DNA of 31,610 nucleotides from positions 1 to 31,610 of the IMG/VR virus record IMGVR_UViG_3300033148_002176. One strand, written 5' to 3'. The notes under the pieces are model-generated. The model searched no databases and was not told the origin of the DNA. It worked only from the letters and a program-made list of their open reading frames with translations. This stretch comes from a virus. Below are positions 24,309 through 30,913 of this stretch, one piece after another; within the stretch, counting starts at the first letter, position 1, and every line of letters begins with the position of its first letter. The position numbers and the translations under genes were made by a program.

Positions 24309-25724
24309 ATGGCGTATGATTACGACGTTGATATCCTCGCTGGACTATGGACGGGTGTTGAGGATGCCAAGGAGCCTTATGCTTCTTTCATCGCTGCTAA
24401 CCCCGACCTTACCGACGAGGTTTCAGAGAATCGGATTCTATCGACAATAGAACTCCTCCGCTCACATATGGAATTGCTACAGACTCGTGAGGAAGCCAAG
24501 CTACTTCACGAGTCCATTAGCAAACTATTCCGTCACACGGCGGGTGGTTCTAATCCATGGAGCGAGGCGGCTGCTGTTACCGGCGCGGTTGGTAACGTAC
24601 CGGCACCGACATTTCCTGCTGGTGCCTCGATTGACATCACTATTAACGGAGCAACTGATTCTCCAGTATCCGCATCTGGCGGTGACTGTGCGACTACTGC
24701 TGCTGAATTGAATGCTGATTTGAATTCTGGTACCCCTGCTGTTGCTGAAAAAACAACTGTAATCCCCGTTGCTGATGTTGATGGCTCGCTAGGTTCGAAG
24801 TATTTTACCCTTAACTCGGGTGGCGATGTCACTGCGTATTATGTGTGGATGATCCATGCCGGTCGCGGCGAAAGCATGTCCTTGGATTTCACTGCTATTA
24901 CTGGTGGTACTCTTCCAGTAGGTGCGGTCCCCGCTGCATATTTCGATATCACCTCTGCGACAACAACTTACCGTTGCTGGTTCAGTGATGGCTCGACTAC
25001 GGCTCCTGCTGTTACGACCGAGACTTTGGTTCCTATTTCCTTTACCGGTGCTGATGCCGATACTGTGATTGCGGCTGCTGCTACTACAGCTATAGTAACC
25101 GGAACTGGTGATCCAGACTTCTCTGGGTTCGCCAATGGTGGCACCGCAGTTATAACGGGTACTTTGGTTACTGTTGGTAATGTAACCGACCCTGTTGATG
25201 GTGCTGTTACTACTGGGGCTCTTATTGGCACTACCACACAGGGTCTTGCTGCTGCTACTGATCCCGCACCGGGTGGAACCGGAATTCCGGTTGTTTATGC
25301 AGTCAATGACGCTTTTTCTACTATTGCTACTAAGGTTAAAAATGCTATTGATGCTAACGGCGACTTCTCTGCGGGTGAAGAAGGTACAATAACAATCACT
25401 GCTGCTGCGACTGGTCCTACTACTGATGCTGCTGATGTGGACACTGGGTTCGCAATCGCGGTTACTGTACAGGGTGCTGATGCCATTGGTGGCGTGAGTT
25501 CTGTTGAAGTGTACTGTGAACAACCCGGACCCCGTCTGGCAATTCGTGCCACGGAAGACTTCGTAACCTTCGAACTTGCAAACGGCACTGGTGGTGTTAT
25601 TGGACCCGCTGGTATTATTCCCGGCGAGCGTTCGAGCAAGCCAAAGCAAGTTGCCGACCAAGGTCGTGACCTATCATTGGGACACTTTGCTGGTACTCCA
25701 CGCGACTCCGTCCTAACTCCGTAA
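24309..25724 (+). CDS. Probable virion protein, 471 aa, with Ala/Thr/Gly-rich insertion
   Basis: This gene follows its paralogue after 22 bases with GGAGGAAA as ribosome binding site. Residues 1-75 share most positions with the first gene, including LWTGVED, NPDLTDE and SENRILSTIE. Between about residues 90 and 440 lies a long, repetitive beta-type region of Ala, Thr, Gly, Val and Asp (for example ITITAAATGPTTDAADVD), probably several Ig-like or similar domains. The end, VADQGRDLSLGHFAG, mirrors the helix at the end of its paralogue. This looks like the same head/tail protein with extra surface domains inserted. Function unknown beyond a likely virion role. Confidence 0.83.
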   Translation: MAYDYDVDILAGLWTGVEDAKEPYASFIAANPDLTDEVSENRILSTIELLRSHMELLQTREEAKLLHESISKLFRHTAGGSNPWSEAAAVTGAVGNVPAPTFPAGASIDITINGATDSPVSASGGDCATTAAELNADLNSGTPAVAEKTTVIPVADVDGSLGSKYFTLNSGGDVTAYYVWMIHAGRGESMSLDFTAITGGTLPVGAVPAAYFDITSATTTYRCWFSDGSTTAPAVTTETLVPISFTGADADTVIAAAATTAIVTGTGDPDFSGFANGGTAVITGTLVTVGNVTDPVDGAVTTGALIGTTTQGLAAATDPAPGGTGIPVVYAVNDAFSTIATKVKNAIDANGDFSAGEEGTITITAAATGPTTDAADVDTGFAIAVTVQGADAIGGVSSVEVYCEQPGPRLAIRATEDFVTFELANGTGGVIGPAGIIPGERSSKPKQVADQGRDLSLGHFAGTPRDSVLTP

Positions 25725-25726
25725 CA

Positions 25727-25756
25727 TTGACAAAACGTTGTCCGTAGTGGTAAAAT
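25727..25756 (+). promoter_or_regulatory. Strong sigma70-type promoter for the Acb1-like gene
   Basis: A consensus TTGACA at 25727-25732 and TAAAAT at 25751-25756 are separated by 18 bases. The ATG at 25763 is 6 bases beyond the -10, so the transcript is predicted to start at the A of the ATG or within a base or two. No ribosome binding site is present. Confidence 0.7.
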
Positions 25757-25763
25757 ACCACTA
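25745..25763. repeat. Perfect 8-bp inverted repeat over the -10 box and start codon
   Basis: TAGTGGTA at 25745-25752 and TACCACTA at 25756-25763 are exact reverse complements around AAA. The palindrome covers the -10 and the predicted transcription start of the Acb1-like gene, the usual place for a repressor operator. Confidence 0.75.
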
Positions 25764-26263
25764 TGGATAATTATGCCCACTATCATACTGGAATTGGTAC
25801 TATCAAGTACGATCCTCCGCGTCACGGGATGCGGAAGCGCACCCGTGCGTCTGGGGCAAGCAATAAGGATTTTTGGTGTATCCTCCAAGTTGACCGAGAA
25901 ATCACTCGCTACTATCGCTGGATGATTCAGCGTCGCCTGTGGGCATGGACGGCTTTGCAGCCTGATTGGTTGTGCCAACCTTCATGGGATGCACACGTGT
26001 CTATTGTGCGCGGTGAGATGCCTCGTCGGAACGTCGAACTGTGGCGCAAGTACGATGGAGTTAAGGTTGAATTTAAGTATGCTCACCACCCACGGAAGAC
26101 CACAATGGAAGACCGTGCGAACCGGTATGCCAAGGATGGAGACTTCTGGTTTATCGATGTGGAGTGTCCACTTATTGACCTCATCCGTGACGAACTTGGG
26201 TTGCGCGTGCACCATGGTTCTCACCTCACTGTCGGGCGTACCTACGATAACCGCAATCGCTAG
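25763..26263 (+). CDS. acb1: 2H phosphoesterase, probable Acb1-like anti-CBASS nuclease (T4 57B family)
   Basis: The 166-residue product has the two H-x-(S/T) motifs of 2H phosphoesterases: H78-V-S80 in DAHVSIVRGEMP and H154-L-T156 in GSHLTVGR. Between them are ELWRKYDGVKVEFKY and FWFIDVECPLIDLIRDELG, which I recognise from T4 gp57B (Acb1) and relatives. Acb1 degrades the cyclic oligonucleotide signals of CBASS immunity. The His-to-His spacing of 76 residues compares with about 69 that I recall for T4-type Acb1. The N-terminal 40 residues are basic and extra. An early, apparently leaderless promoter fits an anti-defence role. LigT-type RNA ligase/phosphodiesterase activity is the alternative. 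Confidence 0.8.
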   Translation: MDNYAHYHTGIGTIKYDPPRHGMRKRTRASGASNKDFWCILQVDREITRYYRWMIQRRLWAWTALQPDWLCQPSWDAHVSIVRGEMPRRNVELWRKYDGVKVEFKYAHHPRKTTMEDRANRYAKDGDFWFIDVECPLIDLIRDELGLRVHHGSHLTVGRTYDNRNR

Positions 26264-26264
26264 A

Positions 26265-26293
26265 TTGATTTTTGCCAATCTCGATGCTATATT
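26265..26293 (+). promoter_or_regulatory. Sigma70-type promoter, probably leaderless, for primase
   Basis: TTGATT at 26265-26270 and TATATT at 26288-26293 are 17 bases apart, and the ATG is at 26300, 6 bases after the -10. The promoter begins right after the stop codon of the Acb1-like gene and fills the whole gap. GAAGG touches the ATG, too close to act as a normal ribosome binding site. Confidence 0.65.
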
Positions 26294-26299
26294 CGAAGG

Positions 26300-27331
26300 A
26301 TGACAGATATTCTCGAAGAGTTCAGAGCGGCTATACCTGCGAACCGCAGGATGGGTCCGGGTGGTTGGTTAAACTTCTGCTGCCCTTCCTGTGGTGATCG
26401 CAAGTATCGTGGTGGCGTCGCCTTCACCCCTACGGGCGGGTGGCGCTATTACTGCTTCAACGGTGGTTGTGAATTCAATTCTCAGCCAGCCGGTTGGGAA
26501 CCAGAGAATGGTTTTGGTGGGCGTGCACGCAAGCTCTTCGAACTCATTGGTGGTGATGTCCGTAAGATTCCTCTAGCAGAGAGAATGAAATGGAGCACTA
26601 CCAAATTCTCTTCGGACGGTAGTATTTCCGAACAGGGTAAGAGCCTAGAAGTGGTACATACGTTCCCCGAGGTGGAATTACCCGACGGATGTCATTTATT
26701 GTTGGACGTTTATAAAGGTAACAAGTCCGCCAATAAAGTTATGCAATATGCCCGTGGACGAATGGGTCGCCAGTTCGTCGAGGACTTTCCATTATATTGG
26801 ACAGAGAAACATCCGTACTATGTGATCATGCCATACTTTCATTACAAGGATAAAATCATTGGATACCTCGGGAGGCACATATACCACACCCACGGACCGA
26901 AGAGATTTCTTCAGCGTGCACCCAGTGATTATCTTTTTAATCAGCACCTACTGACCACGTACAATGCACGGTATTTGTTCGTAGTGGAATCACCGATGGA
27001 TGCCGTACTCCTTGGTTGTGTAGCGGCACGTAATGATAGACTGACTGAGAAGCAAATCAACTTGCTTAAGGTAAGTGGAAAGGATATAGTTATGGTACCT
27101 GATTGCAAGACTGGCGAATACACCGAGTTCCTTCGTCAGGCTGAAGAAAATAATTGGTTTGTTGCTATTCCAGAATGGACGGGTAAATCAAATCCTGACT
27201 CATTGAAGACGACCGACATAGGTCGCTCGGTGGTCAAAGACGGCTTGTTGTTCACCATCGAATTAATGATGAAAGGGGCAACAAGGAATTTTGTAAGAGC
27301 AAACATTGAGTTGAACATCCGAAGCGTATGA
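26300..27331 (+). CDS. gp61: DNA primase, T4 gp61-like
   Basis: The product makes RNA primers for lagging-strand synthesis together with the gp41 helicase encoded next. The N-terminal zinc-binding domain has CCPSCGD at residues 27-33 and YCFNGGC at 51-57, giving four to five Cys ligands. A toprim-type catalytic centre follows: LFVVESPMDAVLLG near residues 225-238 with the Glu, then MVPDCKTGEY near 263 with the Asp. Total length is 343 residues, as in T4 gp61. The ATG overlaps nothing upstream and is probably read from a leaderless transcript. The stop overlaps the helicase ATG (ATGA). Confidence 0.93.
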   Translation: MTDILEEFRAAIPANRRMGPGGWLNFCCPSCGDRKYRGGVAFTPTGGWRYYCFNGGCEFNSQPAGWEPENGFGGRARKLFELIGGDVRKIPLAERMKWSTTKFSSDGSISEQGKSLEVVHTFPEVELPDGCHLLLDVYKGNKSANKVMQYARGRMGRQFVEDFPLYWTEKHPYYVIMPYFHYKDKIIGYLGRHIYHTHGPKRFLQRAPSDYLFNQHLLTTYNARYLFVVESPMDAVLLGCVAARNDRLTEKQINLLKVSGKDIVMVPDCKTGEYTEFLRQAEENNWFVAIPEWTGKSNPDSLKTTDIGRSVVKDGLLFTIELMMKGATRNFVRANIELNIRSV

Positions 27332-28920
27332 GCGACGATCTAGAAGAAGAGATGGAAGAAGACCACTTCGCCGATGGTGGAGAGCAAGACGGTCCTGATG
27401 AGGAAGCCAGCTTGCCCGATCTCGATGATATGGATGATATGGATTCCGCTGAAGATTCTGAGCCGTCCGACTATACACAGCACCTATTGTTATCGTATCT
27501 CATCTCTGCGCCAGAGTTGTGGGTAAAGTGTTCACCAATTATAAAAGCTGAATACTTCGATCCCCAATATCGTCCGGTCGTAACAAACATCGCCGAACAC
27601 TTGAAGAAATATAAGGACATGCCAACCCCCGAGATGATTCATACGGAAACGGGAGTGCGGTTGGATGTCAAAGACGACGCCGAAAAAGAATCAACACAAA
27701 CCTATGTCTGTGACAAGATAGAAGAATTTTGCCGCACGACAGCCTTTCATGATTTCCTAGTCCAATCGGCTGAGGAAACAGAGAGTGACAAGAGCCGAGC
27801 TACCATCTCCGCTCTCATGCAACAGGCAGCACAGATCGAGAAAATATCTCTCACTAGGAATCTGGGCATCGAGGTGCATACCGGTACTGTTGAAATACTG
27901 ACCCGATCAGAAAAAGACGACAACCTACCAACCGGATTCGCACACATGGATACGGCGTTCGGTGGTGGACTAACCTGTCCAAGTTTCAATATCGTCTCAT
28001 GCGCCAGTGGTGACGGTAAATCGATTTTCATACAGAACATGATGGTTAACTATATCGAGCAAGGTACGAACAGTGTTTTCTATTCGCTCGAACTTGAACC
28101 TGCGATTGTGCTTAAACGTTTTGCTGCCATGATGACGGAAACTCACATAGATCACGTGTATTCCCATTTGGATAGTATCGGACATGCCATGCACACGCGT
28201 AAGAAAACCGATGGCGCTCTGTGGGTAATAAAGTTCCCCATGGTAGGAACTTCCATGGCTGACATCGAAGCACACTTCCAAGAATTGGAGATGCACACCA
28301 AACTCAAATTCGGTGCCGTGGCTGTAGACTACATTGACATCATGGAACCAAAGGCAAAGATCGATAAGTCCAATATCCACATCAAGGACAAATTAGTATC
28401 TGAAGAAATGAACGACTGGGCTCATGAACAGAAATTGATACTCTGGTCGGCATCACAACAGACTAAGGGTGCACAAGATGAGAAAGACCCACGGCAGTCT
28501 GGTGTTTCTGGTGGTACTCCGAAGATTAGTACCTGTGACAATCTCATCATAGGTAAGCGCTCAGAGGATGACATCGAAGACGAAAGATGGTGGGCTCACG
28601 TACAGAAGGCGCGTTCATCGGGAGCCAACAAGACTAAAATTCCACTACACTGGGATTCTCATACGATGCGTATGCGCGATGGTGATCTTGATAAATTCAA
28701 GGAAGCCAATCCTAAACTGTTCGGCTTCAGACGCCCAACTGAAACAAAATCCAAATCATCAGAGCTAATTAGAAATGATCCAGTAGCGCAAGAGTTAGGT
28801 ATTGATATGGCTGAAAAGCCAGCGGAAACTGGAGTAAGTAAGAAGGTGGTAAACACCTTCAGTCGCCTCCGCACTTTTCATCACCCACAACAGGATATGC
28901 AAAATGACGAAACAGAGTGA
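27328..28920 (+). CDS. gp41: Replicative DNA helicase, T4 gp41/DnaB-like
   Basis: The hexameric helicase unwinds DNA ahead of the fork and contacts primase. The N-terminal 50 residues form an unusual, very acidic leader (Asp/Glu-rich with DDMDDMDSAEDSE). A DnaB-type N-terminal helical domain follows, with LLLSYLISAPELWVK. The RecA core starts with LPTGFAHMDTAFGGGL, Walker A is CASGDGKS near residues 226-233, then YSLELEPAIVLKRFAAMM (DnaB H1a), Walker B VAVDYIDIM near 332-340, and the H3 region LILWSASQQTKGA. Length is 530 residues. It overlaps primase by 4 bases and the next gene by 17, so the three are co-translated. Confidence 0.94.
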   Translation: MSDDLEEEMEEDHFADGGEQDGPDEEASLPDLDDMDDMDSAEDSEPSDYTQHLLLSYLISAPELWVKCSPIIKAEYFDPQYRPVVTNIAEHLKKYKDMPTPEMIHTETGVRLDVKDDAEKESTQTYVCDKIEEFCRTTAFHDFLVQSAEETESDKSRATISALMQQAAQIEKISLTRNLGIEVHTGTVEILTRSEKDDNLPTGFAHMDTAFGGGLTCPSFNIVSCASGDGKSIFIQNMMVNYIEQGTNSVFYSLELEPAIVLKRFAAMMTETHIDHVYSHLDSIGHAMHTRKKTDGALWVIKFPMVGTSMADIEAHFQELEMHTKLKFGAVAVDYIDIMEPKAKIDKSNIHIKDKLVSEEMNDWAHEQKLILWSASQQTKGAQDEKDPRQSGVSGGTPKISTCDNLIIGKRSEDDIEDERWWAHVQKARSSGANKTKIPLHWDSHTMRMRDGDLDKFKEANPKLFGFRRPTETKSKSSELIRNDPVAQELGIDMAEKPAETGVSKKVVNTFSRLRTFHHPQQDMQNDETE

Positions 28921-29394: not shown

Positions 29395-29643
29395 ATGATG
29401 AAAGGTGATATATTCAAACAACTGATGGAGCAATTTTCTCCGCACACCGTGGGTGTACGAGGGGAAGAGGCACACGCCCATGCGGTCAAGTTTTTGGAGA
29501 TGCTAGTAGCACAGATTCCAGAAGAAGATGAGCGCAAGAAATTAATGGCAACATGGATGCGCTCCGTGAAAGACCGTGACTATAAAAAGTTTGAACGGGC
29601 ACTTAAAAGATATCATAGACGCCGAGAGGCAGGTACAGACTAA
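29395..29643 (+). CDS. Small basic helical hypothetical protein, 82 aa
   Basis: The gene starts five bases after the previous stop and overlaps the sulfotransferase ATG by one base (TAATG). A second in-frame ATG is at 29398; no good ribosome binding site is visible for either. The product is helical and ends in a basic segment, FERALKRYHRRREAGTD, that could bind nucleic acid. No motif is recognised. Its place in the early replication operon makes a real gene likely, but the function is unknown. Confidence 0.75.
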   Translation: MMKGDIFKQLMEQFSPHTVGVRGEEAHAHAVKFLEMLVAQIPEEDERKKLMATWMRSVKDRDYKKFERALKRYHRRREAGTD

Positions 29644-30440
29644 TGAGCAAACAGATACATTTCGTCACAGGACTCCCGCGCTCGGGTTCTACACTACTGT
29701 GCAACATTCTCAATCAGAATCCCGAATTCCATGCCACCTCTACATCAGGCATCCTCGACATCGTTCTAGCTATTCGCAACCAGTGGGAAAACCTCGCTGT
29801 GTTCAAAGCCTCACCCAATAAGGCAGGCAAGGCAGCGGTGGTCAATTCCATTCTGCATAACTACGTCAGCATAATCGACCGTCCAGTTTACTTCGATAAG
29901 TCTCGTGGATGGATTGCTCACATAGAAATGGCTGAAGTCATCCTCGGTCGTCCGGCCAAAATGATTGTGCCGGTCAGAAAAATCACCGACATCCTTTCCT
30001 CTTTTGAAAACCTATTCAGAAAGAATGCTCACGACTGGCAGTTCCCACAAGAGAAGACTCATTACTTTGATTGGCAGACAGTGGAAGGGCGTTCCGATAT
30101 CTGGATGCGCAGTGACCAACCGGTCGGGATTGCGTACAACCGAATCCGTGATGCTATCAGCCGTGGGTACCGTGACCGTCTACACTTCGTCGAGTTTGAA
30201 GACCTAGCATCCAAGCCCAAGGAAACAATGCAAGGAGTGTATGAGTTTCTGGAATACGAGTACTTCGACCATGACTTCGATTATGTCCCACAGGTTACCC
30301 AAGAGAATGATGACATTCATGGTATCCCGGGGCTGCACGTGATTCGTAACAAGGTCGAACCATTGCCATCATACGGTAATACACTAATCGGTGAGCAGTC
30401 TTACAATAAATACAACGATGCACAATTTTGGCAGACTTAA
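29643..30440 (+). CDS. Sulfotransferase family protein
   Basis: The N-terminus has the PAPS-binding 5' loop TGLPRSGSTLL at residues 9-19, the diagnostic sulfotransferase P-loop, and a 3'-phosphate-binding segment around IVPVRKITDILSSFENLF near residues 108-126. A later FVEFEDLASKPKETM segment corresponds to the usual conserved YEDL region. Such enzymes move a sulfuryl group from PAPS to a hydroxyl or amine; in phages they are thought to modify small molecules, host surface sugars or other targets, but the acceptor cannot be told from sequence. It is the last gene of the early rightward operon. Its stop codon is one base from the broken end of the convergent GIY-YIG gene. Confidence 0.9.
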   Translation: MSKQIHFVTGLPRSGSTLLCNILNQNPEFHATSTSGILDIVLAIRNQWENLAVFKASPNKAGKAAVVNSILHNYVSIIDRPVYFDKSRGWIAHIEMAEVILGRPAKMIVPVRKITDILSSFENLFRKNAHDWQFPQEKTHYFDWQTVEGRSDIWMRSDQPVGIAYNRIRDAISRGYRDRLHFVEFEDLASKPKETMQGVYEFLEYEYFDHDFDYVPQVTQENDDIHGIPGLHVIRNKVEPLPSYGNTLIGEQSYNKYNDAQFWQT

Positions 30441-30441
30441 T

Positions 30442-30913
30442 TTAATCAACGATAAACATCTGCGTTACGTGTGTCCAAGCCTGACCCTTTTTAATTTTGG
30501 TAACCATGGTGGTACTAATTCCGTACTCCTTAGCAATAAATTCCTGCGACTTGAATCTCTGTTAACTTACTTCTACGATTCTTAGAGCCCGTGACGCCAG
30601 CACGTTGCTCCAAGTCCCATAGATGCCCGCTGCTACCCCTTCCACCAATACTCTTATTATATCCAAAGGGATATAAAGCGTTATTCCGCATTATGTAAGT
30701 CTGTGCACGCCGGTTTGCCTCGATGGGTTCGTTATAACATTCGATTGTCTGGGAGATGAATGCCGCTCTACCATATTCTGCTACAGCTTCCTTCAGTAGG
30801 GGTGACCCCGTGCCGGTCATATGAGCGCTGATGCGCTTCTTGGGGTTGGTTGATAGTCCGACATACACCTTGTCGTTCACTGTGTTGACAATCCGATATA
30901 TGCAATATTCCAC
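30442..30913 (-). pseudogene. GIY-YIG endonuclease with frameshifted C-terminal DNA-binding domain
   Basis: A GTG start with AAGGTG upstream gives a GIY-YIG domain: variants C4-I5-Y6 and Y17-V18-G19, Arg27, Glu65 and PFGYNKSIGGRG near residues 82-92. The in-frame product (30530-30913) stops after 127 residues, in the sequence SKLTEIQVAGIYC. In the next frame the strand continues without a stop as EFIAKEYGISTTMVTKIKKG and then ends at 30442, which is the expected helix-turn-helix that follows KLTEIQV in homing endonucleases. So the gene has lost its reading frame near 30541, probably with a small deletion. The 127-residue piece may still fold, but lacks its specificity module. Confidence 0.78.

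Follow-up and report, generated by a model that had tools for sequence, protein, structure and literature searches.

Acb1, the 57B protein of phage T4, is a phage-encoded phosphoesterase of the 2H superfamily that cleaves cyclic di- and trinucleotides and thereby acts against CBASS. Its tetrad consists of two HxT motifs (H44/T46 and H113/T115), W147 belongs to a C-terminal lid, and E141 contacts the adenine (PMC9117128). For the 2H enzymes of jumbo phages, comparative genomics has led to the prediction that they prepare RNAs for ligation by clearing 2',3'-cyclic ends (PMC7824862, PMC9503650). As to the control of single phage genes, hairpins are found at the starts of the T4 genes e, soc, 49 and I-TevI, and e and I-TevI have late promoters whose transcripts are made without the 5' arm of the hairpin (PMC3014915, PMC2988022).

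In this paper, we examine a gene for which all of these systems are relevant. The window, i.e. the whole stretch of DNA that was analysed, is an entire virus record of 31,610 bases with T4-like genes, among them those for a terminase, a UvsX-like recombinase, a primase and a DnaB-like helicase. An earlier note on this DNA had taken one of its genes for a probable Acb1-like anti-CBASS enzyme, and its own promoter as a sign of early expression.

The gene and its relatives

The gene, its two motifs and its downstream neighbours are located as follows.

25763..26263, + strand: 2H phosphoesterase gene (phrog_12204 family, 2H-SAK-like), 166 aa; its product is called P0001 below
25994..26002, + strand: first predicted catalytic motif, H78-V79-S80; H and S in 56/56 relatives
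26222..26230, + strand: second predicted catalytic motif, H154-L155-T156; H invariant, T in 53/56 relatives and S in 3
26300..27331, + strand: DNA primase, downstream neighbour; order kept in three relatives
27328..28920, + strand: DnaB-like replicative helicase, downstream neighbour; order kept in three relatives

The open reading frame from the ATG at 25763 to the stop at 26263 is confirmed, with 166 codons for amino acids and both H-x-(S/T) motifs in place. That it is a real gene is indicated by its match to phrog_12204 (1.4e-37) and by its homologues in 45 annotated phage records, almost all of them from phages of at least 300 kb (best identity 42.7%), where nearly all are annotated as "hypothetical". 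Closer homologues, with 58-81% identity, are present in IMG/VR contigs. The 360-kb contig G001 has a 2H copy that is 58-62% identical to P0001 and shares with the window the downstream order 2H gene, primase, helicase. PADLOC and NCBIfam yielded no families for P0001, and a sequence search of the PDB gave no match for P0001 and only a chance match for the family profile. Further downstream, the window has a sulfotransferase gene at 29643-30440 (Sulfotransfer_3, 7.8e-18) and, on the opposite strand at 30530-30913, a GIY-YIG endonuclease gene that occupies about the same place in three relatives.

Besides H78, S80 and H154, the residues R83, E85, P87, W94 and R142 are invariant in the 56 aligned relatives. 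The structure was modelled with AlphaFold2 from the family alignment (mean pLDDT 82.8, pTM 0.78), and both motifs fall on predicted strands (78-83 and 153-160). A Foldseek search of the PDB with this model returns weak matches (best E 0.4), of which the top ones are mostly 2H enzymes, namely the penguinpox cGAMP phosphodiesterase, TT0787 (1iuh) and E. coli LigT, with a mimivirus capping enzyme also among them; no Acb1 entry is found among the best 50 matches listed. Among viral structure models there are two matches at E below 0.001, both without a functional name, and the weaker ones include an RNA 2',3'-cyclic phosphodiesterase, a SAK 2H protein and, at E 0.42, one Acb1.

With both motifs invariant or nearly so, and with fold matches that are weak but mostly to 2H enzymes, P0001 is a member of the 2H phosphoesterase superfamily, and the earlier note was right on this point. 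By analogy with the rest of the superfamily, H78/S80 and H154/T156 would be the catalytic residues. Two features that had been regarded as peculiar to this copy turn out to be common property of the family: the serine of the first motif is present in 56/56 relatives, and what had been called an "extra" basic N-terminus, some 40 residues long, consists for the most part of a family-conserved G-x-I-x-Y-D-P-x-R strand. The true N-terminal insertion of the window's clade amounts to only some 8 residues, around positions 26-33.

Placement among the 2H families

When the 56 relatives were scanned one by one against Pfam, 50 of them matched 2H-SAK (PF22547) at E<=1, the best at 5.1e-10, while LigT_PEase was listed for a single member (E 0.18) and Acb1 (PF23474) for none. 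Three relatives scanned singly against 2H-SAK lie above the curated cut-off (L032, L050, L058) and two below it (L024, L074), and P0001 itself reaches 14.9 bits, which is under the cut-off of 27. Subject to the filters of HMMER, P0001 has no Acb1 match listed at an E of 10 or less; T4 57B, used as a positive control, matches PF23474 at 2.7e-60.

In the profile-profile comparison against nine bacterial 2H-SAK sequences, 101 columns of the family are aligned and both histidines are in register, with a probability of 95.5 and an E of 1.4e-8, to be read with the caveat that these sequences were gathered with the PF22547 model. Against 19 Acb1 sequences, the probability is 13.5 and the alignment is out of register, with the family's second motif on the first one of Acb1, a shift that is possible because 2H proteins are internally duplicated. 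LigT-type proteins reach 2.2 and column-shuffled controls at most 0.8. According to the earlier note, a best match to RNA-processing 2H enzymes of the LigT kind would speak against Acb1. In substance this is the outcome, as the best match is 2H-SAK and not Acb1; LigT itself, on the other hand, comes below even Acb1.

These profiles place the gene in a jumbo-phage branch allied to 2H-SAK, its closest profile match. Going by the Pfam title and the two comparative-genomics papers, we take SAK to stand for the "Swiss Army Knife" RNA-repair proteins, the namesake of PF22547; to our knowledge, no biochemistry has been described for 2H-SAK. The two have in common the HxS/T...HxT tetrad in register and an arginine in the helix that precedes the second motif, and several members of P0001's family are above the Pfam cut-off. 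They differ in that the window's copy is under that cut-off, that its family has RGExP, LWKKY and N-terminal GxIxYDPxR motifs of its own, and that what looks like a signal peptide extends the N-terminus of some bacterial 2H-SAK proteins. Two contigs, G017 and G018 (those of L066 and L067), have a second 2H-type gene each, with a 2H-SAK match 14 kb (G017) and 19 kb (G018) from the first.

With Acb1 (PF23474, phrog_755), the gene shares the superfamily, the phage origin and a similar size. The first motif is HxS in all 56 relatives and HxT in 14/14 of the Acb1 set. Only 12 residues follow H154 in P0001 (family median 9), whereas in Acb1 the second histidine is followed by E141 at a distance of 28 residues and by W147 at 34, and the lid can therefore not exist in the P0001 chain. 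The match to the T4 57B pattern that had been claimed for the middle of the protein comes down, in BLASTP, to ten residues (NVELWRKYDG/HLEVWKTQDG, E 0.34) whose places in the fold are not equivalent: with the P0001 strands taken from the AlphaFold2 model and the T4 strands inferred from sequence, W74 of T4 stands directly before the strand LVLVLDS, which corresponds to FWFIDVE in P0001, while W94 of P0001 is one strand earlier, before VKVEFKY. The gene neighbours are also different, and 11 of the 20 large phage contigs that carry the 2H gene, including G001, encode in addition a separate protein that passes the Pfam cut-off for Acb1. On the basis of its sequence, P0001 is thus a 2H phosphoesterase but not an Acb1, and its identification as an anti-CBASS enzyme of the Acb1 kind finds no support. 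In G001, the Acb1 forms a fusion with a PcfJ-like region, the two sharing a reading frame of 584 aa (L133:238-1992, - strand).

One could also imagine that P0001 shares with Acb1 the ability to cleave cyclic di- or trinucleotides, having come to it independently from another 2H branch. The chemistry would be within reach, since Acb1 and the penguinpox 2',3'-cGAMP phosphodiesterase are both 2H enzymes, the latter being the top, albeit weak, fold match in the PDB, and large phages do encounter CBASS. However, with no Acb1 match for P0001 or its 56 relatives, no lid to supply E141 and W147, a profile alignment that is out of register, and a true Acb1 already present in so many of the contigs, we consider this quite unlikely. 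A 2'-5' RNA ligase or phosphodiesterase of the LigT/ThpR type is suggested by the LigT entries among the weak fold matches; the low profile-profile probability and the lone LigT_PEase listing make this assignment very improbable.

Associating the 45-record family with 2H-SAK instead of Acb1 spares it a false anti-CBASS label and provides a direct assay, with RNA 2',3'-cyclic ends as the substrate. Since large phages often have both the 2H gene and Acb1, a single phage would allow a comparison of their activities.

A possible role in RNA repair

On balance, we think that P0001 is probably a small metal-independent 2H phosphoesterase that heals RNA ends with 2',3'-cyclic phosphates ahead of phage RNA ligases; both this substrate and the role in repair are what we infer for the family. 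In such a scheme, host RNases would cut RNA to leave 2',3'-cyclic phosphates, or closely related 2'-phosphoesters, at the ends. The 2H enzyme would open the cyclic ends, its acid-base tetrad being formed by H78/S80 and H154/T156, and phage RNA ligases could then reseal the cleaved tRNAs or other RNAs. Motura QDH83605 (L144:19928-20455, - strand), a review's example of a jumbo-phage 2H protein for 2',3'-cyclic phosphates, proved to match Pfam Acb1 (2.4e-12).

An RNA ligase match is found at most 5 kb from the 2H gene in 8/20 contigs, or in 4/16 when one lineage is collapsed (chance about 0.009), and because the 5-kb limit was fixed post hoc and the set consists of 2H-carrying contigs alone, this linkage lends the repair role moderate support. 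RNA ligases are common in jumbo phages, and 19 of the 20 contigs have at least one match. A tRNA nucleotidyltransferase is encoded within about 5 kb of the 2H gene at 7 of some 50 loci. No RNA ligase is seen in the 31,610-base window, nor near the 2H gene of the best relative, G001, where the nearest one is 52 kb away, and an operon-context check found no RNA-repair genes among the ten neighbours of bacterial homologues that were scanned. One of the ligases (L027:4253-5275) is a 341-aa protein with PF09414 at residues 165-313 and an N-terminus that is HNH-like by eye; similar ones occur in L024 and L025.

Instead of RNA ends, the enzyme might process small cyclic phosphates, for example ADP-ribose 1'',2''-cyclic phosphate, or a different host signal. 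Some 2H enzymes do so, and a link to the NAD-ADP-ribose network has been published (PMC9503650). Consistent with this, genes annotated for ADP-ribose 1-phosphate processing lie within about 5 kb in Atu_ph07 and phage G, and one bacterial homologue adjoins an ADP-ribosylglycohydrolase. These neighbours are single cases, however, and the RNA ligase linkage is the better supported pattern, so that we regard such a substrate as unlikely compared to RNA ends.

The start region in comparison with the T4 hairpins

Two overlapping elements are located at the start of the gene.

25727..25756, + strand: sigma70-like promoter site, TTGACA-18-TAAAAT, 11/12, TG-extended; putative function
25737..25771, + strand: inverted repeat forming an RNA hairpin of -21.9 kcal/mol (z -7.0), whose 3' arm holds the AUG and whose tip is spanned by the -10

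The last base of the -10 element (25751-25756) is 7 nt upstream of the A of the ATG, and a transcript from this site would consequently be nearly leaderless; no Shine-Dalgarno sequence is seen for the gene. The site is kept in three relatives, with a spacer of 17 instead of 18. Sigma70-like sites are not enriched as a class in this region (13 found vs 14.7 expected), and the one at the 2H gene is the best-scoring. What had been described as the gene's own sigma70-type promoter is therefore borne out as a conserved sequence, and "early" is a presumption as to its timing.

The hairpin has 12-16 bp, and its 12-bp core (25741-25752 with 25756-25767) is kept in the four sequences compared. In the three relatives, its energies are -15.9, -22.0 and -25.4 kcal/mol. 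Among the 34 gene starts of the window, the next strongest hairpin has only -9.7. Similarly, the homologous 2H start is extreme among the 407 starts of G001 (-25.4, the next being -16.4, with a mean of -4.9 and an sd of 3.1), and it is one of five there with a promoter of at least 10/12 abutting the ATG. Over the four sequences, 97.9% of the pair cells are kept and two pairs are changed on both sides; this covariation is suggestive but not strong, because the observed measures are reached by 17 to 48 of 500 shuffles. Rfam gives nothing in 25500-26500. The hairpin was not seen at the starts of most of the distant homologues and is thus a trait of the window's clade. We have also considered the dyad as a protein operator, but L005 keeps the pairing while changing the bases at two pairs, which a hairpin fits better than a fixed protein site does, as far as four sequences can tell.

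As the -10 spans the tip of the hairpin, transcripts from the promoter would start near the AUG and be without the 5' arm. In any read-through RNA, by contrast, the start codon would be buried in the hairpin, and for this reason the 2H protein would be made mainly from the gene's own promoter.

This arrangement can be compared with that of T4 genes e (lysozyme) and I-TevI. There too, a hairpin sequesters the translation start, the promoter is placed such that its transcripts are without the 5' arm, and read-through RNA would be silent. At the level of sequence anatomy, the window has what characterizes gene e, i.e. a hairpin enclosing the start and a promoter skipping its 5' arm, conserved in relatives. 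The differences are that the T4 promoter is a late one, while the site at the 2H gene is sigma70-like with its -10 spanning the hairpin tip, and that the 2H RNA would be nearly leaderless. The switch would thus appear to have a different polarity from that of T4. In a more tentative proposal, which goes further than we would expect to hold in full, these phages would have a hitherto unassigned 2H family that erases 2',3'-cyclic phosphate RNA damage, and perhaps also the signal which such damage gives, and whose gene is controlled in this clade by the T4 lysozyme switch in mirror image: the overlapping sigma70-like promoter would give the nearly leaderless message, and read-through RNA from upstream genes would be kept silent. 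If true, the promoter-and-hairpin start would be a testable variant of the classic T4 control.
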